The notes under the pieces were generated by a model. That model saw only the letters and a program-made list of their open reading frames with translations, was not told the origin of the DNA and searched no databases. Shown here one piece after another: positions 2,376-62,761 of a stretch of 64,000 nucleotides of DNA. The stretch comes from Clostridiales bacterium (GTDB lineage Bacteria; Bacillota; Clostridia; Lachnospirales; Lachnospiraceae), in contig DUNO01000048.1 in the NCBI GenBank assembly GCA_012839295.1, forward strand, positions 124,001 to 188,000, read 5' to 3'. The position numbers were made by a program, and so were the translations under genes. Position 1 is the stretch's first letter. Each line of letters opens with the position of its first letter.

Positions 2376-2432
2376 ACCAAGGCATCACTATACTTGCCTA
2401 ATTTCTTCTTTTCTCAGGCTGTGATTCGAGCA

Positions 2433-3836
2433 TCAATAGTCTATGGATACAACATCATAGTTCAAATAGGTCTTAAAAGCCTCCTCTAAAGCCCATTTCA
2501 TATGTCCCACACCGATAGAGGTATGGTGCTTGAAGCCTCCCCTTGCCAACCGGATTAATTTATCCTGAAGCTGGGGGATCTCAGCTACGCCGGCACAGCC
2601 AAAGAACCCATCTTCGATGGAATCATCGGTCATATTGCCTTCACTGACATAGACCGTCAGCTTGCCGTCCTCTGTCTTGCAGTTGGAGAAGGTCATCGGA
2701 AATGCCTTAATACGGCCTTCGTTGGAGCCCCAGCCTGAGCCCGGATCATCCTTGGCGAACATCTTATGCTCCGTTACAGTCCCCTCCCCAGTCATCAAGG
2801 TCTGGGCTACCGGTCCGCAGTGGAACAGGATTACCTTATTCTCATCCTCGCCATAATTATTGTTCCAGTCCAGAACCGTTGTTGGCTCACCGGAGGCCAG
2901 GTTCATGGCGCGCATTGTGATGGCTGAGCATAGATCAATCTCGCAGGAGGCTACGATACCACGGTCATTAAGCTCGCTGAGCAACACACAGGGACATACC
3001 CGGAGGATGGTCTCCAGCTCATTCCAGCAGCGGAGGGTTATTGCATCCAGGTTATATTTTTCTATGTAATCATCAATGACGACACTGATCTTTGCAAGGA
3101 TCAGCTTATTCTTTAACGGAACCAAGCTAAAGTTTGTATAGCTCTCCAGCCTGGCCACCTTATGGATTACCTTCTGGTCATCATCCTCCATCTTCTGCAC
3201 CAGATAGATCAGCTCGGACAGGTCAAAGGATTCTACATTGATCCCGTGCTTCTGCAGCGCGATCTCATCAAAACGGACCGTCTTAAAGGCTGTTGTCCTG
3301 GCTCCGATACAGCCCACATTAAACCTCTTCATACCATTTACAACACGGCACACCATGGCAAATTCCCTTAAGTTCTCTGCAAAATCCACGGAAAGAGGGT
3401 GTACCACATGGGGCTTCATGACAGTAAAGGGCACCCGGTACTGGGAAAATACATCGGTCACGGAGAATTTTCCGCAGTAAGCATCCCTGCGGTATTTAAA
3501 GTCCATCTTGCCGATTTCATCCGGGTAGGCCTGCATCAGGATCGGCACTCCCGCATCCTGTAATGCGGTGATGGCTCCATTTTCGTCTACGAAAATCGGC
3601 ATGCAGAAGATAACGCCGTCATATTGACCCTCCTGCTGCTTGAGCCACTGGGCGTAAATACGTCCCTCCTGCCTTGTCTCCACAGCGCCGTATCTGGTTG
3701 CTTCCTCATCCATTATGATGTAATCAAAGCCTGCATCTGTCACTGCCTTTACCATCTCATCCCGTGCACCCAGGATTAATTCTCCCGGCATAAAGCCTCT
3801 GTTACCAAAGCATAATGCAAATGTTGTCTTTCTCAT
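2433..3836 (-). CDS. L-fucose/L-arabinose isomerase-family protein
   Basis: A 467-residue cytoplasmic protein whose text (opening RKTTFALCFGNRGFMPGEL, central FNVGCIGARTTAFKTVRFDE, C-terminal HHTSIGVGH) is that of the L-fucose/L-arabinose isomerase-fold family, which interconverts aldoses and ketoses with a bound metal ion. Its length is close to that of this subgroup and shorter than classical FucI (about 590 residues), so it is not FucI itself. GGAGG precedes the ATG at 3836 with good spacing. It is the first gene of the minus-strand operon with the FGGY kinase and the DUF4432 protein, divergent from a PocR-AraC regulator. This predicts aldose to ketose, then phosphorylation. Related proteins act on several sugars, and a sulfosugar isomerase of this fold is also known, so the substrate stays open. 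Confidence 0.82.
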   Translation of the reverse strand: MRKTTFALCFGNRGFMPGELILGARDEMVKAVTDAGFDYIIMDEEATRYGAVETRQEGRIYAQWLKQQEGQYDGVIFCMPIFVDENGAITALQDAGVPILMQAYPDEIGKMDFKYRRDAYCGKFSVTDVFSQYRVPFTVMKPHVVHPLSVDFAENLREFAMVCRVVNGMKRFNVGCIGARTTAFKTVRFDEIALQKHGINVESFDLSELIYLVQKMEDDDQKVIHKVARLESYTNFSLVPLKNKLILAKISVVIDDYIEKYNLDAITLRCWNELETILRVCPCVLLSELNDRGIVASCEIDLCSAITMRAMNLASGEPTTVLDWNNNYGEDENKVILFHCGPVAQTLMTGEGTVTEHKMFAKDDPGSGWGSNEGRIKAFPMTFSNCKTEDGKLTVYVSEGNMTDDSIEDGFFGCAGVAEIPQLQDKLIRLARGGFKHHTSIGVGHMKWALEEAFKTYLNYDVVSIDY

Positions 3837-14427: not shown

Positions 14428-15141
14428 TTATAATACTCCTTTCTTCTGCAGCGCCTCTTTCAAAGCCACAGCGCCGAATCTCGGGCTGGATAGCACAGGT
14501 TTTTTACAGCTCTCATGGACCAGCTCCTCACAATAAGCCATGGAGCCCTGGCAGAACAGGATCACATCAACCTGGTCTTTGATTTCAGCCGCTTTCCCAA
14601 GCATAAGCTTCTTAAATTCCTCCTGGTTAAGCCCGAAGGCTCCCTCGATCAATCCGTCTACCAGCACGACATGCTGATCCATCTCACGGGCTACACGCTT
14701 AATCGTATTTTTCGTAGGCTCCAGGGTCGTGGGCAACGTGGCAAGCACACCAATACGTTTGCCGAGGCGTACCGCTTCCCTGCACATCTCCTCATCAATT
14801 CTGACAATCGGAACACCGCTGTACCTGGCAAAATCCTGAACCGCATCCGCAACCTCGCCAACCGATGAGCATATATTCAAAATAGCATCCGCCCCATCCT
14901 TGATGGACTGAGCAAACATTTCAACCAAAAGCGCGGCGGCCTCCTTCGTTACATAGCCCGATTCCCTGGCTTTTGCCAGAACCTCAGGATTCTGGTACAT
15001 CTTAAGCTCCGCAGCTGGCCCCACATTCTTTCTCACTTCCGTCTCGACCATTTCGATCAATTCCGGTGTAGTTGACGTGTACACTAACCCAATTTTCATA
15101 AAAAACACTTGTATGATGTATCCCGTAACAAATACATCCAT
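14428..15141 (-). CDS. Asp/Glu racemase-superfamily protein
   Basis: A 237-residue cytoplasmic protein with the two pseudo-symmetric halves of the Asp/Glu/hydantoin racemase superfamily. The two expected catalytic cysteines are in NICSSVGE and in ILFCQGSMAY. Members include amino-acid racemases and maleate or arylmalonate-processing enzymes. The ATG at 15141 has an AAAGGAG site; an inner ATG at 15099 (MKIGLVYTS) fits family alignments better but has no ribosome site. It sits between BKACE and GH127 genes, which suggests epimerisation or decarboxylation of an acid in the same pathway. A role as true glutamate racemase is unlikely in this context. Confidence 0.82.
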   Translation of the reverse strand: MDVFVTGYIIQVFFMKIGLVYTSTTPELIEMVETEVRKNVGPAAELKMYQNPEVLAKARESGYVTKEAAALLVEMFAQSIKDGADAILNICSSVGEVADAVQDFARYSGVPIVRIDEEMCREAVRLGKRIGVLATLPTTLEPTKNTIKRVAREMDQHVVLVDGLIEGAFGLNQEEFKKLMLGKAAEIKDQVDVILFCQGSMAYCEELVHESCKKPVLSSPRFGAVALKEALQKKGVL

Positions 15142-15175
15142 ACTCTCCTTTCCTTATAATCTTGGTCTTTCATAC

Positions 15176-15317
15176 CTAACGCGGTGAATATGAGTGTTTA
15201 TCTATCCATATGGGCGCAGACCGGGCATCCCATGATCGCCTGCACTTGGCAATCATGGGATGTTAAAGGCAAGCCCATGTGGATAGATAAACACTCATAT
15301 TTACCTCACAGCCTAAA
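15176..15317 (-). repeat. Structured intergenic element, copy 1 of 4
   Basis: One of four related elements (others at 16287, 20685 and 60808). Two arms of about 32 bases, 15184-15215 and 15272-15303, are complementary with only two weak positions. They enclose a conserved core: CGCAGACCGGG, a 15-bp inner stem with loop TGCACTT, then TTAAAGGCAAG. Conserved borders are CTAACGCGG and CAGCCTAAA. It lies between the BKACE stop and the racemase start. Confidence 0.85.
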
Positions 15318-15380
15318 CCTCGCCCACCCGACGCCCAAATCCTATCATTATTAATAGTCTGGATTAATAGCCCGGATTAT

Positions 15381-16190
15381 TCAAAGGCCTTCCTTGCCGC
15401 AGTTCAACAGCTCCCTGACCTCAAAGGGGGAAGCAGGCTCCATATCCATTGCACGGATCAGCTTCGCCAGCTTTTCTACTAACTGATAATTATGGTCTGC
15501 CTGCTGTATCTCACTTAAATACCTGCTGTCCTCGAAACCGATCCGGACTACGGTCGCCCCCATGGCGATTGCCGCTGCGAGGAAACTCCAGTTATCCCTC
15601 CCAAAATGTGTTACACCCCAGAGGCAATCCTTCGGCACAAAAGCTTTAAATGCCGTAAGGGCTTCCATGGTCGGCTGCATTCCTCCCTTATGTCCAAATA
15701 CCAGATTAAACAGTACCGGATCCCGGAAAGGGCACTCTTCCCTTACCAACTGTATATTATTTATCATTCCGATATCAAACACTTCAATCTCAGGAATGAC
15801 CTTTCTTTCATAACACATTTTAGCGCAGTAGCGAATATCCTCAAAGGAATTGCAATAGATTGCCTCCCCAAGGTTGGTTGAGCCTCCGTTTAAGGATGCG
15901 CTTTCTGCCCTCGGATAATTTAGCGGATAACACCGCTGTGCAATATCCATCTGTGAAATTCCACCTGTGGATACCTGCACCACCACATCCCTCTGGTCAA
16001 GTATCCGGTCAAAGGCCTCAGATATCACTGAGATATCCGGCGTCAGCTTGCCTTCCCTTGTCTTGGAATGCAAATGGCACATTCCAGCTCCCATATCAAC
16101 GCATTTTGCAACATCCTCAGCCAACTGCTCCGGAATCATCGGATCCGGACCCGCAACTGGGGCTACCGAGATAATCACTTTTCTCTTCAT
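15381..16190 (-). CDS. BKACE-family beta-keto acid cleavage enzyme
   Basis: A 269-residue TIM-barrel enzyme of the BKACE family (formerly DUF849, relatives of 3-keto-5-aminohexanoate cleavage enzyme). These enzymes use zinc and acetyl-CoA to cleave beta-keto acids. Visible hallmarks are the start KVIISVAPVAG, the zinc-binding CHLHSK segment, the VQVSTGG strand, EIEVFDIG and the late WGVTHFGRDNWSF. I chose the ATG at 16190 because GGAGGG lies just upstream; a GTG at 16211 includes that site. Structured elements lie on both sides. Being between a DUF1537 kinase and a racemase-like gene suggests cleavage of a keto acid derived from a sugar acid. The substrate is unknown. Confidence 0.9.
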   Translation of the reverse strand: MKRKVIISVAPVAGPDPMIPEQLAEDVAKCVDMGAGMCHLHSKTREGKLTPDISVISEAFDRILDQRDVVVQVSTGGISQMDIAQRCYPLNYPRAESASLNGGSTNLGEAIYCNSFEDIRYCAKMCYERKVIPEIEVFDIGMINNIQLVREECPFRDPVLFNLVFGHKGGMQPTMEALTAFKAFVPKDCLWGVTHFGRDNWSFLAAAIAMGATVVRIGFEDSRYLSEIQQADHNYQLVEKLAKLIRAMDMEPASPFEVRELLNCGKEGL

Positions 16191-16286
16191 TCCAACCCTC
16201 CATACTACCAAGACTCTGTAAAATTGAACTCTCTCTCTTTTTCTCTATCAGTTTATATCATTTTCCAAAAAGCTTCTTTCACAATA

Positions 16287-16429
16287 CTAACGCGGTGGAC
16301 ATGGGTGCCTATCTATTCATCTGGGCGCAGACCGGGCCTCCCGTGGTTGCCTGCACTTGGCAATCATGGGATGTTAAAGGCAAGCCCAGGTGGATAGATA
16401 GGCACCCATGTCCATCTCACTGCCTAAAT
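16287..16429 (-). repeat. Structured intergenic element, copy 2 of 4
   Basis: Same borders and core as copy 1, but the arms (about 16294-16325 and 16382-16414) have a different sequence and still pair with each other. It begins 17 bases after the DUF1537 stop and ends 97 bases before the BKACE start on the transcribed strand. The inner stem uses G-U pairs where copy 1 has Watson-Crick pairs. Confidence 0.85.
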
Positions 16430-16445
16430 CAGACCCTAAATCCCA

Positions 16446-17873
16446 TCACAGAAGCTCCTCCAATACCCTGCGTAAAGAATCATCCTCACCCACATTCCCA
16501 GGGAAAATAATATACGGAATTCCCGGAAATCTGCTGCCGGCATCGGTTTTCCAAACCGGAATTCCCGGTAACACCTGCCCCAGGACATAAGCCTTCCGCA
16601 CCTGCAGCGCTTTTACGCCGATATCACTGGAGGTAATGCCGCCCTTTGCGACAACAAATTCGGGAACCACCGTCAAATTCTGGACCAGCTGCTGTACTGC
16701 CTCGGAGATCTTAACGGAACGGAGCAAAGCATCCTCCTTCGTATCATTTTCCAGGGTGAGGACAGTTCGCCTGGTATAGGTTACGACGGTTTTTCCCTGC
16801 CTGATGCACATGCTGCTTAACTCTGTGACACGCTTTACCTCCTCTTCCAGCCTGTCTTCCAGCACCAGGTCCGAATTAAATTCAAAGAACACCAGCTGCT
16901 CCATATGCCTGAGGGCTAACAGCTGCTCCGTGGTCTTGGCAGTATGGGAACCGATAACGACGATTCCGCCCTGCCGGCTACCCTCTCCAAGCATATCCGC
17001 TTTCGTAAGAAGCGCCTTTTCAGCTATGCCTCCGGCCGCTCTTACAAAGTCGGCAGCGGTGCGGAGCAGAAAATACTTTCCTTTCCTGATTGCCCGGTAT
17101 AGAGCCACACTGAAGACCTCCAAATCCTTCGGTTCAATGGCATTTACAATTACCTTGCCAAATCCGGTCATACCCTCAAGCACTTTTTCTATGGAATCCA
17201 GCTTTGCGCTGCGGATCTCCTCCAGGCTGACCGCCGCCACGTCCCCGGACCGGTATGCGCCCTGGGTCTTTTCCTCAATATATTCGCATAGGTCTGATTT
17301 TGTATATCCGAAGGTTTTATCATTGGCAAATTCCGTCTCGGCGGCGGGTATTAATTCCTCTCCATATTTCACATAGTGGACATTATCTATGGTAAACCTG
17401 CCTCCGGCCTGGAAAAATGGTATCAATACCTCTGCATCCACCCTGATTCCCCCACCCTCTTCAAGCTCCTCCTTCAGAAGCTTCGTTTCCAGCGGATAAT
17501 GTCCTCTTAAGGTTGAATCACTTCTGCTGATTATAAGGAATTTCTTTCCCGTCTGCCGGGATGCCCTTATTACATTTTGCACAATCTCCCTATGAAGCTG
17601 CGTTGTCTGCTCTTCCGTCAGCCCCCGCGAATTCGTCAGAAGATAGAAGAGCCTTTCCTTCCCCATAAATCCCTGCAGGACGCTTTCATACTTCCAATCT
17701 GTATAAACATAGACACCGTGGACCGTCTGTACTCCTGTCGGGTCATCATCCAGCACAACCAGCTTTAAACCGCTTTTCTCAATCTCTTTCTTCAGCAGCT
17801 GTGCAATATTTTGGCTGTCATACTCACTTTGCTGATATTTTCTCTCTATTTCATTCCACATTAAATGTTCCAT
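16446..17873 (-). CDS. DUF1537 four-carbon acid sugar kinase-family protein
   Basis: A 475-residue kinase of the DUF1537 family with an N-terminal sugar-binding domain (LVVLDDDPTGVQTVHGV near the start, then FLIISRSDSTLRGHYPLET) and a C-terminal nucleotide-binding domain (VVIGSHTAKTTEQL, FVVAKGGITSSDIGV). Known members phosphorylate D-threonate, L- or D-erythronate, or 3-oxo-isoapionate with ATP. The ATG at 17873 is chosen; a TTG at 17915 is also open. It follows the UroD-like gene and precedes the BKACE gene, so the phosphorylated acid may be an intermediate of this operon. Because a GH140-like apiosidase gene is adjacent, an apiose-derived acid is an attractive but unproven substrate. Confidence 0.88.
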   Translation of the reverse strand: MEHLMWNEIERKYQQSEYDSQNIAQLLKKEIEKSGLKLVVLDDDPTGVQTVHGVYVYTDWKYESVLQGFMGKERLFYLLTNSRGLTEEQTTQLHREIVQNVIRASRQTGKKFLIISRSDSTLRGHYPLETKLLKEELEEGGGIRVDAEVLIPFFQAGGRFTIDNVHYVKYGEELIPAAETEFANDKTFGYTKSDLCEYIEEKTQGAYRSGDVAAVSLEEIRSAKLDSIEKVLEGMTGFGKVIVNAIEPKDLEVFSVALYRAIRKGKYFLLRTAADFVRAAGGIAEKALLTKADMLGEGSRQGGIVVIGSHTAKTTEQLLALRHMEQLVFFEFNSDLVLEDRLEEEVKRVTELSSMCIRQGKTVVTYTRRTVLTLENDTKEDALLRSVKISEAVQQLVQNLTVVPEFVVAKGGITSSDIGVKALQVRKAYVLGQVLPGIPVWKTDAGSRFPGIPYIIFPGNVGEDDSLRRVLEELL

Positions 17874-17969
17874 GTCTTTACCTGCCTTACCTATGATATA
17901 AACTGAAGTCAACAAAGCTGTATTTCCTCACAACAAGACGGACGGGTAAGCTAAATACGGTTGTTTTTG

Positions 17970-19281: not shown

Positions 19282-20625
19282 TCAGTCCGCCTCAACTACC
19301 AGCACAGCATCCTCTCCATCCTCTCTCTCCGGCGGAAGGAAGGCTGCCTCCTCCATCCCCGTCACCTCCCGGATGAAGCTTTTTGCTCCCGTCACCGGGT
19401 CAAACCAGTATGCGGAAAGCTTTTTTCCTTGGTAGGCCTTCAAAGAGATCCGTATTTCCCTTCCGGTATAGGTATGGGCGAATAAGAAATCCTCACCTGC
19501 AAAAACGCTGATGCGTTCATACCTCTTTCCCTGTCCGGACAGCAGATATTCGCCGGCAGGCCTTCCGTGGACAAAATCCACGGAGGTCATCAGCCCGGCC
19601 AGATGCTTCATCTGGGCGCCGCCGGGATGATGGAGGGCTTCCCTCCACAAATGCTTTACCCCAAATGCACCTTCCCGGGATTTGTCGCCATAGAACTGCA
19701 TAATAGCATTGTGCCCATAAGTGTGGCCTGCAGCCCCTGCAAACACATTCCAGTAGGCATAGCGCCTTACATCTGCCGCTTTCCAGTAAGGCTGGGTCTT
19801 ATCATGGAGCCCCTGCAGAACCCACTCATAAGAGGGTTCTCCGTCCAGGACGGGCTTGAAGGGGATTCTTGCCCCATCCCGCTCCACATACCGCCAGCAA
19901 TCTTCACCAAAGCTCTCTTCCGCACCCGCATTATCGTCCCATGCATCAAGCCGGGTTTGGTCATATCTGCGGTGTCCCGACTGAAACAGGTTAAAATCCA
20001 GCCACTCCTCCTCATGGAACCACTGGGCAGAGCTGGTCCGTCCAAAGGGATGGTAGCCCACCAGGCGCTCCGGGCGGTCTGCCTTCATCATCCTGCCCAT
20101 GGTACAAAAAACATCCGGATTTACATCACCCCGGACATCGCCGCCCACAATCCATACAATGTTCGGACTATCGTGGTACCGATCCAAAATAAACCGCATA
20201 TAAGCTTCCACATTGCCGGAGTTCAAGTATCCACCCGCTACCATGCTGCTGCCCCACACCGGCAGCAGACCCAGATAGAGCCCGAATTCCTCCGCCATTG
20301 ATATTACCCTGTCCACATGCTTCCAGAAGGCTCCCTGGGTATTGATCTTTTCAAATTCCCCATCCGTAAGCGCACTGTCCCCTGCCAGGTTTTTCTGTCC
20401 CGGCTTATGGATAAAGTCCGCCAGGATAATATTGTACCCAAGCTCCTTCCGGTTCCTGAAATACTCATAGGTCTCCTCCAGGCTAAGCTGGTGGAACAAC
20501 AGCCACGCCGTATCCCCCATCCAGAAAAAAGGGGTATCTCCACAGCTAAAATATCTTCCGTTATCCGTTACCTTCAATTCGCCGTCTTCCCATGGCTTAT
20601 TATATTTCTTCCTACTCCTGTCCAT
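19282..20625 (-). CDS. GH140-like (DUF4038 apiosidase-family) glycoside hydrolase
   Basis: A 447-residue protein with a TIM-barrel apiosidase-like domain (DUF4038; FFWMGDTAWLLFHQLS, YNIILADF, PNIVWIVGGDVRGD, KPVLDGEPSYEW) and a C-terminal beta domain of the type found after it (YTGREIRISLKAYQGKKLSAYWFDPVTG). In the GH140 apiosidase of Bacteroides the acid is an Asp in such a GGD segment and the nucleophile an acidic residue near the E-P-SYE segment, both present here. It lacks a signal peptide. It follows the importer genes after structured element copy 3 and ends at a terminator. Activity on apiose-containing oligosaccharides is plausible but the family is broader than GH140. Confidence 0.8.
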   Translation of the reverse strand: MDRSRKKYNKPWEDGELKVTDNGRYFSCGDTPFFWMGDTAWLLFHQLSLEETYEYFRNRKELGYNIILADFIHKPGQKNLAGDSALTDGEFEKINTQGAFWKHVDRVISMAEEFGLYLGLLPVWGSSMVAGGYLNSGNVEAYMRFILDRYHDSPNIVWIVGGDVRGDVNPDVFCTMGRMMKADRPERLVGYHPFGRTSSAQWFHEEEWLDFNLFQSGHRRYDQTRLDAWDDNAGAEESFGEDCWRYVERDGARIPFKPVLDGEPSYEWVLQGLHDKTQPYWKAADVRRYAYWNVFAGAAGHTYGHNAIMQFYGDKSREGAFGVKHLWREALHHPGGAQMKHLAGLMTSVDFVHGRPAGEYLLSGQGKRYERISVFAGEDFLFAHTYTGREIRISLKAYQGKKLSAYWFDPVTGAKSFIREVTGMEEAAFLPPEREDGEDAVLVVEAD

Positions 20626-20684: not shown

Positions 20685-20824
20685 CCAGCGCGATGAATGC
20701 GGGTGCATATAGATGCATCTGGCGCAGACCGGGCATCCCATGGTTGCCTGCACCTGGTAATCATGGGATGTTAAAGGCAAGCCAGATGCATCTATATGCA
20801 CCCGCATTCATCTCACAACCTAAA
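20685..20824 (-). repeat. Structured intergenic element, copy 3 of 4 (perfect arms)
   Basis: The clearest copy: 32-base arms at about 20691-20722 and 20781-20812 are fully complementary although their sequence differs from copies 1, 2 and 4. Core and inner hairpin (CATCCCATGGTTGCC with GGTAATCATGGGATG, loop TGCACCT) are conserved. It lies between the substrate-binding protein gene and the GH140-like gene, 60 bases before the latter's start. The 384-base gap 20626-21009 also holds the hairpin at 20865-20888 and the repeat at 20904-21023. Confidence 0.88.
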
Positions 20825-20903: not shown

Positions 20904-21023
20904 TTATGTCCATGCCCATCCTTACGGGCATTGCCCTTATACCGCACAAATCGCCATGAAAATGCTGGCATGGATCCGGTCCTCCATCCGCTTATCAGGT
21001 TTAATTCTTTCAACCTTTTACAC
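20904..21023. repeat. 3'-end repeat of binding-protein gene, copy A
   Basis: This 120-base segment covers the last codons of the substrate-binding protein gene and its 3' untranslated region; about nine of ten bases match 35044-35163 upstream of the wecB-like gene. It contains small inverted repeats (ATGCCC/GGGCAT at about 20912-20926, CCATG/CATGG at about 20955-20972). Copy A is the original, because it joins an intact gene. Confidence 0.8.
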
Positions 21024-22617
21024 CTTCCAGGTAAGCGGTCAACTGGAGCTTCATTTCATCCATAACCTTCTGCATACCTGCTGCCTCAGCCTGCTTGTTA
21101 AACTCGGCCAGGGTTCCTTCCACATCCTCTACCAGACCCAGATCCAGCAAAGGAATATACTGGGTATATACACTCTGCAGACTGGCAAGCTCATTCTTCA
21201 CCTTGGTATCATCAAAGGAAAATGCTGCGGTAGGACCTTCCACGGCTTTTGCCGACCAGGCATCTCCGATTTCCTTTTGATCCGGGAACATATCTTCCCT
21301 GGTCATCTCATACATAGAGTTTTTAAGCCCCCAGGAGAAACCGTTACCAAAAGGATTCCTGCTCATCTGGTCCCCTGCGGCCCATATACCGTCGGATACT
21401 ATTTTATAGTGGGTTCCTTCGATACCGTAGCGCACCAGACGGTACAATTCTTCGTCAAATTTCAATAAATCAAGAGCCATGAATGCCCTCTCCTGGTTTT
21501 TGGAGTTGGCCAGTACAGCCACGCCGTCACCGGTATAGGCCGCAAAGAAACGGTCCGCCCCCGGGTTCAGGTCATATACTTCCGGTTTCCATTCCGGATG
21601 GTTCTTTTCCACCTCAGATGCGACAGCCCCTACGGTACCAAGATTCTGGGTAAAGGAAGCGCTGGTTCCATTGAGGAAGGACTCCTTTACATCCGTAGCA
21701 TTGGCAATGGCACTTTTTGACCAGAAGCCCTTGTCAGCCCACTCCTTCATAAGCTTTGCATAAGCCAGGTATTCGTCCGTCCCATAGATCCAGAATAAAT
21801 CATCCGCCGTTACGCTATCAGAATACTGATAGGAAAAATAATTCATTAACGAGCCTTCAATCCTGACCCAGTTATTCTCGGAATACAACCCAATATATTT
21901 TGAGGTGTCATTATGCTGGGACGCATTGTATGCAAAGGAAACACCGGAATCCTTATCACCGGCAACTGCCGTATAATATGCCTCAAGATCCTTCAGGCCC
22001 TTTAGTCTGTCCAGACCATATTTTTCCCTCAGGTCTCCCCGGATTACGATGGCGTTGGCGCTTACGTTAGCCATGTTGCAGGGTACAAAATATATCTTAC
22101 CCCCAATCTTGGCCTGCCCCCAGGAGGCCTCTGCCTGGTTCTCCTTATGCAGGGGCATGTAATCCGCCAATACCTGGTCCGTCACTTCCGCAAAGGCACC
22201 CTTGTTGGCTTCTGACTGATAGAAGGCCCAGGTGGAGGTATAAATCAAATCCACATCCTCCCCGCCTGCGATGGTCAGCGCATATTTGGTGGAATAATCA
22301 CTAAGGGACATATTCTTAAGTGCCAGGGTAGCATTAATCTTTTCCTTTAATACGGCGTTAATCTTTTCCAGCACCAGGTCTTCATCCTCTGTTTTATCCC
22401 CGATATAATACATTACCAGCTCCACCGGCTTAGAGACATCCTGTCCATTATAGGTCTGTGCAGCGTCCACGGAATCACCGCTTTGCCCAGCCTGGGTCGG
22501 CTGTGCATCCCCCCCGGTCTGCCCCGCAGGCTTTTTTCCGCCGCTGCAGCCGGTCAGCGCCGACAGGACTAACATTCCCACGAGCAGCAGGGCCACGATT
22601 TTCTTTCCTTTCTTCAT
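21010..22617 (-). CDS. ABC importer substrate-binding lipoprotein
   Basis: A 535-residue exported lipoprotein: signal peptide with lipobox LTGC and lipidated C24, then a Gly/Gln-rich linker and a family-1-type sugar-binding fold. It captures an oligosaccharide outside the membrane and hands it to the two permeases encoded just upstream (LplB and LplC types). An AGGAGG ribosome site precedes the ATG. No ATPase gene is present in the operon, which is usual because a shared MsmX-type ATPase serves many such importers. The gene is followed by hairpins and structured element copy 3, which may raise its message over the downstream hydrolase. The sugar is unknown; the locus context suggests a plant glycan fragment. 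Confidence 0.9.
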   Translation of the reverse strand: MKKGKKIVALLLVGMLVLSALTGCSGGKKPAGQTGGDAQPTQAGQSGDSVDAAQTYNGQDVSKPVELVMYYIGDKTEDEDLVLEKINAVLKEKINATLALKNMSLSDYSTKYALTIAGGEDVDLIYTSTWAFYQSEANKGAFAEVTDQVLADYMPLHKENQAEASWGQAKIGGKIYFVPCNMANVSANAIVIRGDLREKYGLDRLKGLKDLEAYYTAVAGDKDSGVSFAYNASQHNDTSKYIGLYSENNWVRIEGSLMNYFSYQYSDSVTADDLFWIYGTDEYLAYAKLMKEWADKGFWSKSAIANATDVKESFLNGTSASFTQNLGTVGAVASEVEKNHPEWKPEVYDLNPGADRFFAAYTGDGVAVLANSKNQERAFMALDLLKFDEELYRLVRYGIEGTHYKIVSDGIWAAGDQMSRNPFGNGFSWGLKNSMYEMTREDMFPDQKEIGDAWSAKAVEGPTAAFSFDDTKVKNELASLQSVYTQYIPLLDLGLVEDVEGTLAEFNKQAEAAGMQKVMDEMKLQLTAYLEGVKG

Positions 22618-58670: not shown

Positions 58671-60683
58671 TTATGGCCGCTTTTTTAATATAAGGACATC
58701 TCTTGCATCAATGGTTGTTTGTCCGCTTACTTCTTCATCGGTCAGAAGATTGATCAGGGCATCACTTCCGAAGTCTACCTTAGCAGGAGAGTTGTTATGG
58801 TTTATGGCGAATACAACGCTGTTTTCCTTGTTTATGCGGTTTGTGATCTCTATGTTGGGATCGGAGGGGTAAAGGGGCTGGATGCCGGCATCTTTGCATA
58901 CCTTCCCGAGGAAATCGGCAAGGAAGGCGTCCTCTGGTTGGGTTCCGATATAGTAGGCCCTGCCCTTGCCGTAGGTATTTACCGTAAGGCAGGGGTTGTT
59001 CTCGTAGAAATCTTTGCCGTATACGGCTAAGGTCTCTGCCGTGTTTGTGTGCAGGATATCGCAGAGGAAGCTGCATCCGTAGCTTTTCTTTAGGCTGCCA
59101 AACGCTTCGGATATCAGCATCAGGTTGTTCTCCTCCGGGTACAGTGCATCGGTTTCTTCTACCCAGATGCCCAGGGCATCCTTTAGCTTGCCAGGATATT
59201 CCCCGAAGATGCAGCGGTCATTTTCGTCGGCGAGGCCGCTCATGGTTGTGGCTACGAAGGTGCCTCCATTTTTTACGAATTCGTCGATCCGCTCCGCTAC
59301 CCCTTCCTTCATCATATAGAGCATAGGGGCTACGATCAGGGAGTAGTTGCTCAGGTCTGCATTTACATTCAGAATATCAACGGGAATATTTTTGTCAAAT
59401 AATGCTTTGTAATAGCTGGATACGGTTTTAAGATAGTCCATATCCTTGCTCGGTCCGCTGGACAGCTCCAGCGCCCACCAGTTATTCCAGTCGAATAGGA
59501 TGCCGGTCTTTGCCTGAATCCTTCCTTCCAGGAAAACATCCCCCAGCTTGTCAAGCTCGCTTCCCAGCTGGGCACACTCACGGAACACCCTTGTATTGTC
59601 ATGCCCTGCATGGCTGATGACAGCTCCGTGGAATTTCTCCTGGCCTCCAACGGACTGGCGCATCTGGAAGAACATACAGGTGTCCGCCCCGTGAGCCAAT
59701 GCCTGGTAGCTTAATAGCCTTACCTCACCCGGGCGCTTTAATTTGTTATAGGGCTGCCAGTTCTGCTGGTTCGGGGACTGCTCCGTCATCATATAGGACT
59801 GGCCTCCCTTAAGCCCCCTCATGATGTCATGCTTCATGGCAACAAAGCTCTTATCGTCCTTTGGACTCGGATAATTATCCCATCCCACAATATCCATATC
59901 CTTAACCATTTCAAACTGGTCCAGCTTCCTGATATAACCGGACATATTGGTGGAAACCGGTATCTCAGGAGTATATTCCTTTAACACCTGATATTCATTC
60001 AGGAAGCATTCCCTGGTCGAATCCGTTACAAAGCGCATATAATCCAGCTGGATGGCCGGCTGGTAACGGTAATCATCATTCAGCTCCGTAGGAAGCGTAA
60101 CTTCCTCAAAGCTGTATACAGTCCTTCCCCAGAAGGACGTATTCCAGCGTTCGTTCAGGTTCTCAATTGTCTTATAACGCTTTTTCAGCCATACCCGGAA
60201 TTTTGCCTGACAGGTAGGGCAATAGCAATAAGTACCATACTCATTAGCAACATGCCATACGGCAAGTGCAGGGTGCTTTCCATAGCGAACCGCCATCTCC
60301 TTCGCAATCGCCGCCGCACGCTCCCTATATTTCAAGCTGTTCACGCAGAAGAACACGCGCATTCCATGCGTCCTCTTCCTTCCCTGGATATCTACAGGCA
60401 GCACCTCCGGATATCTTGTAGAAAGCCAGGCAGGCTGAGCCGTAGTAGGCGTCGCAAGGCATACATGAATCTTATTCTCCCAAAGCTTATCCATAATCCG
60501 GTCAAGCCACTCAAAATCATATACCCCTTCCTCCGGCTCCAGCTTCGCCCACGAGAATACCGGAAGCGTAACCAAATTAATCTTCGCCTTCCTAAACAGC
60601 TCCATATCCTGCTCTATCGTCGCATCATCCCACTGATCCGGGTTATAATCTCCGCCATAATAAATTTTTTCCGCTCTTTTCAT
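58671..60683 (-). CDS. GH42 beta-galactosidase-family enzyme (B)
   Basis: A 670-residue cytoplasmic GH42 enzyme with acid/base E148 in WHVANEYGTYCYC, nucleophile E301 in SYMMTEQSPNQQNW, a CYCPTC cysteine cluster, the trimerisation domain (GGTFVATTMSGLADEND) and a C-terminal beta domain. The nucleophile neighbourhood (TEQSPNQQNW) differs from that of paralogue A (MESVPSLVNW), so the two probably differ in substrate. GGAGG precedes the ATG. It is the first hydrolase gene after the second importer, separated from it by a terminator and structured element copy 4. Confidence 0.93.
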   Translation of the reverse strand: MKRAEKIYYGGDYNPDQWDDATIEQDMELFRKAKINLVTLPVFSWAKLEPEEGVYDFEWLDRIMDKLWENKIHVCLATPTTAQPAWLSTRYPEVLPVDIQGRKRTHGMRVFFCVNSLKYRERAAAIAKEMAVRYGKHPALAVWHVANEYGTYCYCPTCQAKFRVWLKKRYKTIENLNERWNTSFWGRTVYSFEEVTLPTELNDDYRYQPAIQLDYMRFVTDSTRECFLNEYQVLKEYTPEIPVSTNMSGYIRKLDQFEMVKDMDIVGWDNYPSPKDDKSFVAMKHDIMRGLKGGQSYMMTEQSPNQQNWQPYNKLKRPGEVRLLSYQALAHGADTCMFFQMRQSVGGQEKFHGAVISHAGHDNTRVFRECAQLGSELDKLGDVFLEGRIQAKTGILFDWNNWWALELSSGPSKDMDYLKTVSSYYKALFDKNIPVDILNVNADLSNYSLIVAPMLYMMKEGVAERIDEFVKNGGTFVATTMSGLADENDRCIFGEYPGKLKDALGIWVEETDALYPEENNLMLISEAFGSLKKSYGCSFLCDILHTNTAETLAVYGKDFYENNPCLTVNTYGKGRAYYIGTQPEDAFLADFLGKVCKDAGIQPLYPSDPNIEITNRINKENSVVFAINHNNSPAKVDFGSDALINLLTDEEVSGQTTIDARDVLILKKRP

Positions 60684-60807: not shown

Positions 60808-60949
60808 CTAACGCGGTGGACCGGGGGGGATCTATGTCCACCTGGGCGCAGACCGGGCATCCCGCGATTGCCTGCACTTGGCAATTCCGGGATGTTAAAG
60901 GCAAGCCCAGGTGGATATAGATCCCCCCAGATCCACCTCACAGCCTCAA
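60808..60949 (-). repeat. Structured intergenic element, copy 4 of 4
   Basis: Same borders (CTAACGCGG, CAGCCTCAA) and core as copies 1-3, with G/C-rich arms of its own at about 60814-60846 and 60904-60936 that pair with few mismatches. The inner stem has two mismatches. It lies between the terminator of the second binding-protein gene and the GH42 (B) gene. Confidence 0.85.
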
Positions 60950-61015: not shown

Positions 61016-62761
61016 TTATTTACCGATAGAGGAAAGGTCAGAACCATCCTGCATCATTTGCAGTTTTCCGTCAAAATCAGAAACCTGGCTCTTAACACCA
61101 TCTACATATTTCTGCCATGCAGCATCATCATTAATATCCATTTCACCCGTGATAAACTTTAACGCATTTTCTCTTGCGAACAATTCACAGGTCGTAGTTA
61201 ACTCTGCCTTCTCTGTAGCCTGCTTATCTGTCAGGTTAAGTACCGGGGGACGGTCAAATGGAGATACGGAAGCCGGGCCGCCGATCTTACCGGACTCATG
61301 CCAGTACTTGCCCTCATAATAACCATCGGTAGGATTCCACCAAGGCTCTGTGGGAATCTGCTCTGTCATAGCTTCAAAGGTAAGCGGTGTGAAAGGAATA
61401 CCTGTACGGCAAGCGGAAGAAGACATGATACCATAGTTGGCTGCTGCCTGTACGGGATCCTCTGCATTTAGGATCACATCTGCAAATTTGTGGTCACCGC
61501 TGGCATCAACCGTATAGGTTTCATCCTTAATACCCCAGTTCATCATTTCAATCATTTCGTCAGAGTATTGATAGTCTATCATCTTGACAACCCACTCAGG
61601 ATATTCGGTATCTGCAGAGATAATGATACCCATACTGTTGCTCAAGGATTTACCAGGCTGTCTGGAGCCCCACTTCCAAGGGGTACCATAGGTAGCGTTC
61701 TCCGGAAGGAAGGCGAGCCCCCACTTCATACCATCCACTGTAGACTGGGTGTTCCACATACGGGGCATACCTGCCCAAAGGGTAGGCTGGATTACATTGC
61801 TTCCTTTTACCGCTTTTTCTGTCGCAGTGGCACCGTCATCTGTGCCAAATTCAGGATCAATATAGCCTGCGGCATATAAACTGTTAATGTATTTTAACAT
61901 TTCCCTGAAATTATCCTCGATCGGTCCAAAAGACCACTTTTCTCCGTTCCAGTAGGTTGTATCCCAGGTATGGAAGATGCCTACAAAGCCACGGTAGAAT
62001 GCATAGTTTTTATCAGAGTTTGACATAACATATTTTGCGTCAATTTCACCCTTGTCAATCAATTCCTTTATGTCAGCGCACAGCTTGGTAAATTCATCAA
62101 GGGTTGTGGCCGGCTTTAAGTTAAACTTCTCCAGTAAGTCAAACCGATACGCAAATGCGGTAAAGGATTGTGCGCCCTCAATATTTTCCGGGTTTACAAA
62201 GCCATCCATGAAATAATAAGAGGAACCATTTTCATTGAAGACATACTTCTCTCCACCGTTGGTGCTCTTAATAAACTCGGGATAATACTTCATGTACTGG
62301 GTGTACTTGGAAATATCAAGTACCACGCCGTCTGCACCATATTCATTTACCAATGTTCCCTGGGAGTATGTAGATACATCAGGGATATCACCTGACTGAA
62401 GTAATACCGCCTCATTTGTCCTGAAGTCCTGCCAGGGTGTCATATTCCAGGTAATATCCAGCTTACAGCCCAGATATTCCTCCATCATCCTCTGCCATTC
62501 CTCCTGTACCGCTGTTCCCTGGGCATCCGTACCAAAGTTAGCGGTATTCACTGTAATAGACAGTGTATTATTTGGCAACTCAGGCAATACTGCTTCCCCT
62601 GTCCCTTCTCCACCCTCTTGCGCAGGTGCTTTCGTTGCTCCCTCCGTTGTTCCGGGCTTGTCAGGCTGCTGGGTGGAGTCACCCTTACTTTTACAGCTGA
62701 TAAAGAATGTCATGGACATAACTACCAGCATAAGTAATGCGAAAATTCTCCTTTTTTTCAT
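61016..62761 (-). CDS. ABC importer substrate-binding lipoprotein (second system)
   Basis: A 581-residue exported lipoprotein with a signal peptide, C23 after FFIS as the lipidated residue, a Gln/Pro/Gly/Thr linker and a large sugar-binding fold of the LplA kind. The length and the late GGPASVSPFDRPPVLNLTD segment fit binding proteins for oligosaccharides. AGGAG precedes the ATG. The gene follows two permease genes and ends at a strong terminator. It is only distantly related to the binding protein at 21010, so the two importers probably take different glycan fragments. Confidence 0.9.
   Translation of the reverse strand: MKKRRIFALLMLVVMSMTFFISCKSKGDSTQQPDKPGTTEGATKAPAQEGGEGTGEAVLPELPNNTLSITVNTANFGTDAQGTAVQEEWQRMMEEYLGCKLDITWNMTPWQDFRTNEAVLLQSGDIPDVSTYSQGTLVNEYGADGVVLDISKYTQYMKYYPEFIKSTNGGEKYVFNENGSSYYFMDGFVNPENIEGAQSFTAFAYRFDLLEKFNLKPATTLDEFTKLCADIKELIDKGEIDAKYVMSNSDKNYAFYRGFVGIFHTWDTTYWNGEKWSFGPIEDNFREMLKYINSLYAAGYIDPEFGTDDGATATEKAVKGSNVIQPTLWAGMPRMWNTQSTVDGMKWGLAFLPENATYGTPWKWGSRQPGKSLSNSMGIIISADTEYPEWVVKMIDYQYSDEMIEMMNWGIKDETYTVDASGDHKFADVILNAEDPVQAAANYGIMSSSACRTGIPFTPLTFEAMTEQIPTEPWWNPTDGYYEGKYWHESGKIGGPASVSPFDRPPVLNLTDKQATEKAELTTTCELFARENALKFITGEMDINDDAAWQKYVDGVKSQVSDFDGKLQMMQDGSDLSSIGK

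Follow-up and report, generated by a model that had tools for sequence, protein, structure and literature searches.

The locus at 20685–20824 raises the question of whether a repeated hairpin in a Lachnospiraceae genome is a folded RNA kept by selection or a mobile palindrome whose arms stay complementary for other reasons. The initial annotation had described four copies of a folded element in the window (the whole 64,000-nt stretch of DNA analysed here), and our analysis confirmed that this observation is real: four copies of a conserved 142-nt unit are present on the + strand at the noted places, and the borders, the internal-loop pair (GCAGACCGGG and TTAAAGGCAAG) and the inner hairpin were all found as claimed. 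Each copy lies in a gap between - strand genes. Copy 1 (15176–15317) is located between a BKACE-domain gene (15381–16211, - strand) and an Asp/Glu racemase-domain gene (14428–15141, - strand), while the - strand gene 16446–17915 has its stop codon 18 nt away from copy 2 (16287–16428, its end falling at 16428 or 16429). Copy 3, the lead copy (20685–20824), is flanked by the - strand genes 19282–20625 and 21010–22617, and copy 4 (60808–60949) by the - strand genes 58671–60683 (Glyco_hydro_42) and 61016–62761, with the intrinsic terminator of the right-hand gene 22 nt past the unit. Pfam assigned ordinary domains to the proteins encoded near the copies (Asp_Glu_race, GH127, BKACE, SBD_N/NBD_C, Apiosidase, DUF3502 and Glyco_hydro_42), the product of gene 61016–62761 being the one of the eight checked for which no Pfam match was obtained. 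A separate feature of this region, a 5' leader on the - strand (15108–15165), consists of a ribosome-binding site and an inverted repeat (GATGTATTTGTTAC...AAATACATC) and could encode MYLLLNTSYK; it recurs as blastn matches in eight other genomes of the same genus and, by eye, precedes differing coding sequences in the four loci viewed.

In the lead copy, read along the + strand, the 5' border (20685–20691) is CCAGCGC, where the family form is CTAACGC, and is followed by the covarying left arm of helix P2 (20692–20723), the 5' side of the conserved core (20724–20733, GCAGACCGGG), an inner hairpin P3 that varies between species (20734–20769), the 3' side of the core (20770–20780, GTTAAAGGCAA), the covarying right arm of P2 (20781–20812) and the 3' border (20813–20824, TCACAACCTAAA). 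All 32 counted arm pairs of this copy are Watson–Crick, in agreement with the full complementarity first reported for it. On the + strand, the window copies fold with z values of -10.9 to -14.3, none of 200 shuffles being as good for any copy, and on either strand the fold of each copy beats its own shuffles (z -7.9 to -14.3). A K-turn reading of the core was dropped, as the base identities fit poorly in our own comparison with the K-turn rules.

The window's own genome (G000; 6.36 Mb, 82 contigs) yielded 48 matches by blastn and 131 by covariance model on both strands, the latter count being inflated since the palindrome matches itself in reverse as well. Examination of 63 stretches (62 fetched and the window) gave 67 non-overlapping matches, and at least 16 contig ends fall in the element, which thus breaks assemblies and makes the copy number a lower bound. 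Sixty-one near-full copies were aligned after short or weak ones had been dropped (L040, one of the two in L066, L076, L091, L092 and L093); in two of the 61 (L072 and L073) the core is flipped relative to the arms, whose own orientation is unchanged, and removal of these two copies left a set of 59. The left arms of these 59 copies are all distinct, and the mean difference between copies amounts to 8.6 of 32 arm positions versus 6.4 of 66 positions in the inner region. As a further observation, a right-border-like sequence (CCTCACAGCCTAAA) occurs in tandem at least once past the unit in L022, L035, L044, L046, L058, L061, L068 and L069, and window positions 16429–16444 are similar to the tandem right-border repeats seen beyond other copies in this genome.

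The initial annotation took the kept pairing of divergent arms as a mark of selection and proposed a larger alignment as a check. Covariation proved strong in both such alignments, one from G000 (n = 39) and one spanning the genus (n = 37). The former comprised the 39 near-full copies among the first 42 extracted, leaving out the truncated L019, L039 and L040; 27 of its 52 pairs showed two-sided changes, standard pairs made up 97.8% of the pair cells, and the covariation score was 0.326 against 0.136 in shuffles, with 0 of 500 shuffles as high. Sliding the partner by one base reduced the pairing from 97.8% to 37.6% and 30.8%. The genus-wide set held 37 sequences from seven genomes, picked from 42 candidates after five had been removed as near-duplicates or because their inner parts were long or deleted, and here 27 of 39 pairs were two-sided, with a score of 0.497 against 0.175 in shuffles (0 of 500 as high), both structures having been predicted from the same alignments that were used for counting. 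The covariation therefore stood, but as a mark of selection it is not proof alone, because copying of one arm into the other would also produce it.

Such arm-to-arm copying is a serious rival to selection as the cause of the covariation. According to this explanation, which we consider unlikely although it deserves the most weight among the alternatives, the element is a MITE of the ordinary kind that contains a long palindrome, its arms being kept complementary by fold-back template switching during replication or by inverted-repeat exchange, with no RNA function. The inverted cores in 2 of the 61 aligned copies support it, since they imply that sequence can pass between the arms by such exchange. 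It leaves unexplained, however, the near-invariance of the unpaired core and the presence of two G–U pairs fixed in 39 of 39 aligned G000 copies.

Arm copying further predicts strand symmetry, yet G–U departures outnumbered A–C departures in G000, in G012 and in G071, a genome of another family. The one-sided departures in G000 were 122 G–U versus 30 A–C, arising via both C>T and A>G, neither of which was in excess at unpaired positions; restricting the count to pairs predicted on both strands gave 39 G–U versus 20 A–C (p 0.018), a test that counts related copies and not independent events. Pairs predicted on both strands in two subfamilies of G012 gave 6 versus 2 and 10 versus 1, and the + strand fold was the stabler one in 57 of 59 G000 copies and 24 of 24 G012 copies. 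In the arms of the 19 G071 copies, 17 G–U were found versus 5 A–C, three of the latter in the badly aligned L315. The genus g89 behaved as copying predicts: the arms of its 29 copies are almost purely Watson–Crick (603 Watson–Crick, 30 other) with no G–U excess (3 G–U, 2 A–C), and the + fold was stabler in just 8 of 29. The excess of G–U over A–C thus suggests that it is the + strand that folds in G000, G012 and G071, though not in g89. For the first three these data favour an RNA running against the adjacent gene; for g89 they are silent or contrary. A search for + strand promoters in the left flanks returned best sigma-70-like scores close to those of shuffles on both strands, with no clear excess; in g89, strong sigma-70-like matches were found on the + strand in 4 of 29 copies, against 1.6 in shuffles, and on the other strand in 5.

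The initial annotation had contrasted the element with ordinary MITEs, a contrast that was not supported. The 142-nt unit lies within a longer element bounded by terminal inverted repeats (TIRs), and the finding of TIRs and target duplications in several relatives, together with empty sites, implies that it rides in a MITE-like element. Copies in G000 are flanked on the left by remains of TGATTCGAGCGTCAAAAGTC and on the right by remains of its complement; in the window, a possible decayed left TIR was identified by eye beside copy 2 (16257–16286, + strand, compared with TGATTCGCCCGACAAAAG.CTTCTTTATA) and a possible decayed right TIR beside copy 1 (15318–15348, + strand, compared with CCTCGCCCATTTGACGCTCGAATCAT). 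In other genomes of the genus the TIRs are clearer, species-specific in sequence and still pairing (e.g. L102, L107 and L134). Target duplications of 6 bp (L107, AACTAT; L106, ATGTAT; L130, AATATT; L134, ATTTAT) and 7 bp (L104, AGTTGAT; L163, ATAACTT) were found, the core being incomplete in L130 and L163, and none was seen in L102, L105 and L162, among others. The distance from TIR to TIR was 175–256 bp in eight copies for which both ends were found, within the limit of about 500 bp for a MITE. At the sites of L017 and of window copy 2, G012 has the flanking orthologous genes but not the element. We noticed no ORF common to the copies, some of which are overlapped by chance ORFs of 60–106 aa, and no transposase gene between matching TIRs among the loci viewed, where contigs break at repeats. 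TIR searches also recovered elements, about 300 bp long, that share these ends but differ in their interior; three in G010 (L144–L146), in which the element's TIRs surround a different folded interior, represent a second MITE type. A lone terminal repeat (TGATTCGAGCATCAATAGTCTA, 3 mismatches) was seen at window positions 2422–2443, at the 3' end of gene 2433–3836. Two hairpin-less remnants were also observed in G000, L113 (C72:158617) with both ends and L115 (C12:34774) with at least the left one; their junctions lie at short repeats, as slippage deletion of a palindrome would leave, and this too counts for arm copying.

The fate of the ends could be compared with that of the hairpin. Matching of the TIR consensus to 58 G000 copies found both ends in 10, one in 15 and neither in 33, figures that overestimate end loss because a single consensus variant was used. 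P2 pairing (29 pairs, G–U counted) was 99.0% in copies with both ends, 97.8–98.0% in those with one and 95.7% in those with none, and hence somewhat lower where TIRs are lost (both-TIR copies versus the rest, p 0.07), and the core differed by 0.2–0.57 per copy over 26 positions across the TIR groups, the 33 TIR-less copies showing 0.52. In G000, the ends of the element are decaying and the hairpin is intact. Retention in place was observed at one clean orthologous site, occupied by L362 (G115), L368 (G199) and L364 (G213), between an AraC-type regulator and tuf, whose proteins are 84% and 97% identical, respectively, between G199 and G213. Apart from the tuf terminator and the hairpin unit itself, the spacer there is barely alignable; the hairpin has been kept while its surroundings diverged, and arm copying leaves the survival of the core at such a site unexplained. 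Two of the species carry AA/TT in the arms where the third has GG/CC; the small loop differs as well, and the two-pair change in the arms is both compensatory and clustered, as a single template-switch event would be. A further pair of loci, L369 and L375, has the right flank alone in common, and their arms differ by one base, which creates one mismatch. Between G027 and G031 (14 by 9 copies), comparison of flanking-ORF proteins detected no shared insertion, bar one 28% match, and in the part of the DNA comparison viewed the element itself alone matched.

The copies also showed a preferred orientation relative to genes. With genes called by a longest-ORF rule, the gene 3' of the unit ran opposite to it in 54 of 65 G000 copies (binomial p 6e-8; a long ORF enters the unit in L024, L041, L060, L063, L066 and L090, for which the next gene was taken), in 23 of 30 copies from other genomes of the genus (binomial p 0.005), in 20 of 22 from G071 and G134 (binomial p 1e-4, two further loci being unclassified) and in 19 of 27 from g89. 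For 44 of these 54 G000 copies, no more than 80 bases separate the unit from the end of the opposite-strand gene. Copies thus tend to sit antisense to, and right after, gene stop codons.

This geometry is shared with integron attC sites, whose imperfect palindromes have variable arms, fold on one strand and lie at gene 3' ends, and it raises a second alternative, namely that the element is a folded single-stranded DNA site for recombination or transposition, like attC or a REP hairpin, recognised by a recombinase or Y1 transposase. We consider it improbable. Its mobility, the strand-specific fold in three genomes, arms that vary in sequence while keeping their pairing and the location directly behind a stop codon, where the strand that folds is the antisense strand of the gene, are all consistent with such a site. 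Against this, the TIRs and 6–7 bp duplications in relatives indicate a transposase acting on double strands, and the hairpin is kept where the ends have decayed and at the orthologous site. The attC R boxes follow the consensus RYYYAAC...GTTRRRY, and by eye no inverted pair of them was present in our element, whose borders CTAACGCGG and CAGCCTAAA instead both read CTAA in the same direction and whose conserved part, unlike that of attC, includes the middle. The hairpins of REP/RAYT systems are likewise dispersed near gene 3' ends with one strand recognised; the arms of our element are much longer.

Least probable, in our view, is an element acting from the - strand at the 3' end of the sense mRNA, as a stabiliser, RNase III site or terminator of the kind reported for ERIC and Correia (such MITE roles being reviewed in PMC10969869), since, despite the preference for the first tens of bases past the stop codon and the good folding of the - strand in the window copies, the strand asymmetry favours the opposite strand, no regular T tract that would mark an intrinsic terminator follows the hairpin on either strand of the G000 flanks, and terminator-like hairpins of the neighbouring gene within 130 nt accompany only 2 of 58, 1 of 19, 5 of 18 and 4 of 29 copies in the four sets. 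A shared bidirectional terminator at which a + strand RNA might end, suggested by eye in several right flanks, was rejected as a general rule on the same minority in the scan.

How far the element has spread was followed with three models. Model R1 matched 10 of 61 genomes, none of them from outside the genus, and model R2 matched 11 of 34 genomes of that genus; among 294 other genomes of the order, R2 identified three single places with related cores and other arms and flanks. Model R3 revealed 21 copies in G071 and 3 in G134, and none in 11 other genomes tried, including G039, which has one R2 match. Copies were present in 1 of 2 genomes of the family of G071. When 150 candidates were scored per genome, 7 of the 22 genomes searched in the family of G134 also had copies, among them 6 of 6 from genus g89. 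A class-wide search with R3 found only G000 among 391 genomes, a negative that is weak because 10 candidates were scored per genome. The G071 matches span 70–76 nt with a core that is mostly GGCGTCGACCGGCTGAAAGGAAAGGCAGCC, and their arms, which have a sequence of their own, pair over about 29–35 positions in 18 of the 19 copies drawn. In g89, some hairpins occur as pairs about 160–220 bases apart, in the same direction and with near-same arms (L382, L383, L389 and L390, in G206 and G183). Two pattern matches on genome contigs outside the genus (L083 and L084) were rejected, showing no palindromic arms by eye. With regard to phage or plasmid carriage, copy 2 gave no match, and a loose core pattern found at least 120 stretches in viral contigs; of 80 of these (L172–L251), the ones with enough flank were scored, and the best arm complementarity was 8, far short of a hairpin arm. 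Dozens of dispersed copies with covarying arms around an almost constant core in a host resembling Herbinix, a member of Lachnospirales, together with the related cores in other families of the order, suggest an undescribed folded element, probably RNA, that was spread by transposons and then kept.

Taken together, we give roughly even chances to the reading that the locus holds a non-autonomous mobile element carrying a folded single strand, most likely RNA, that is kept by selection. More tentatively, and with somewhat less than even confidence, the element may belong to an order-wide class of structured RNA, in which a conserved internal-loop module sits on a freely evolving double-stranded RNA rod, is carried between species by transposons of different kinds, and is selected antisense at gene 3' ends. 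In the main reading, a rod-like helix P2 of about 30 bp, free in sequence as long as its pairing is kept, holds up an internal-loop module of approximately 5'-GGC...GACCGG...GG(A/U)AAGGC...-3', closed by the variable inner hairpin. The + strand would be transcribed into an RNA antisense to the gene that ends beside the unit, the core would be recognised by a protein or another RNA, and the arms would serve as a stable scaffold. Transposon ends would spread the element, and selection in place would keep the hairpin once they decay. The putative mode of action considered most likely is that the element, as a small RNA made antisense to gene 3' ends, would recruit a conserved RNA-binding protein or nuclease that marks or processes the overlapping transcript. 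If the order-wide class is real, transposon spread combined with selection at dozens of gene 3' ends would mean that one genome carries distributed, near-identical RNA recognition sites.

Either outcome would be informative. Should the folded strand be RNA, the element would be a repeated regulatory or processing site acquired from transposons and kept by structural selection, a natural experiment in which mobile DNA is turned into RNA parts. Should arm copying be the cause, the element would serve as a warning that a palindrome of no function can pass as a structured RNA in covariation tests. The orthologous copy, the inverted cores and the decayed ends make selection versus arm copying testable within one family.

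The statement in the initial annotation that no named RNA family with this core came to mind held up against Rfam 15, in which the window, 11 loci of the genus and 9 loci of other families gave no match at or above the gathering threshold; a permissive scan of copy 3 returned seven microRNA-type matches and one PyrC leader, all far under threshold. The element was also undescribed in the open-licence literature searched. Among known repeats, the BOX, RUP and SPRITE elements of pneumococcus have another sequence and a modular layout and reside in a distant host. They are likewise interspersed repeats with predicted RNA structures, as PMC10969869 describes. The same review describes prokaryotic MITEs (QMITE2 of Coxiella, Correia/NEMIS and ERIC) as short, with TIRs and fading target duplications, inserted in AT-rich intergenic sites and giving transcripts predicted to fold, all of which our element shares; unlike the MITEs as described there, it has inner arms that vary while pairing is kept, a near-invariant core, a bias towards one strand and a hairpin that persists beyond the ends, and in other families a related core turns up amid different flanks. 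Stem-loop repeat families have been catalogued in 40 bacterial genomes (PMC2267715), and they and our element are alike dispersed, intergenic and united by a predicted fold; the abstract of that work does not mention covarying arms around a fixed core. Being mobile, folded and intergenic, the element can be grouped with MITEs and stem-loop repeats, from which it is distinguished by freely covarying arms around a fixed core, by survival past the loss of its ends and by a related core found across several families with other flanks.
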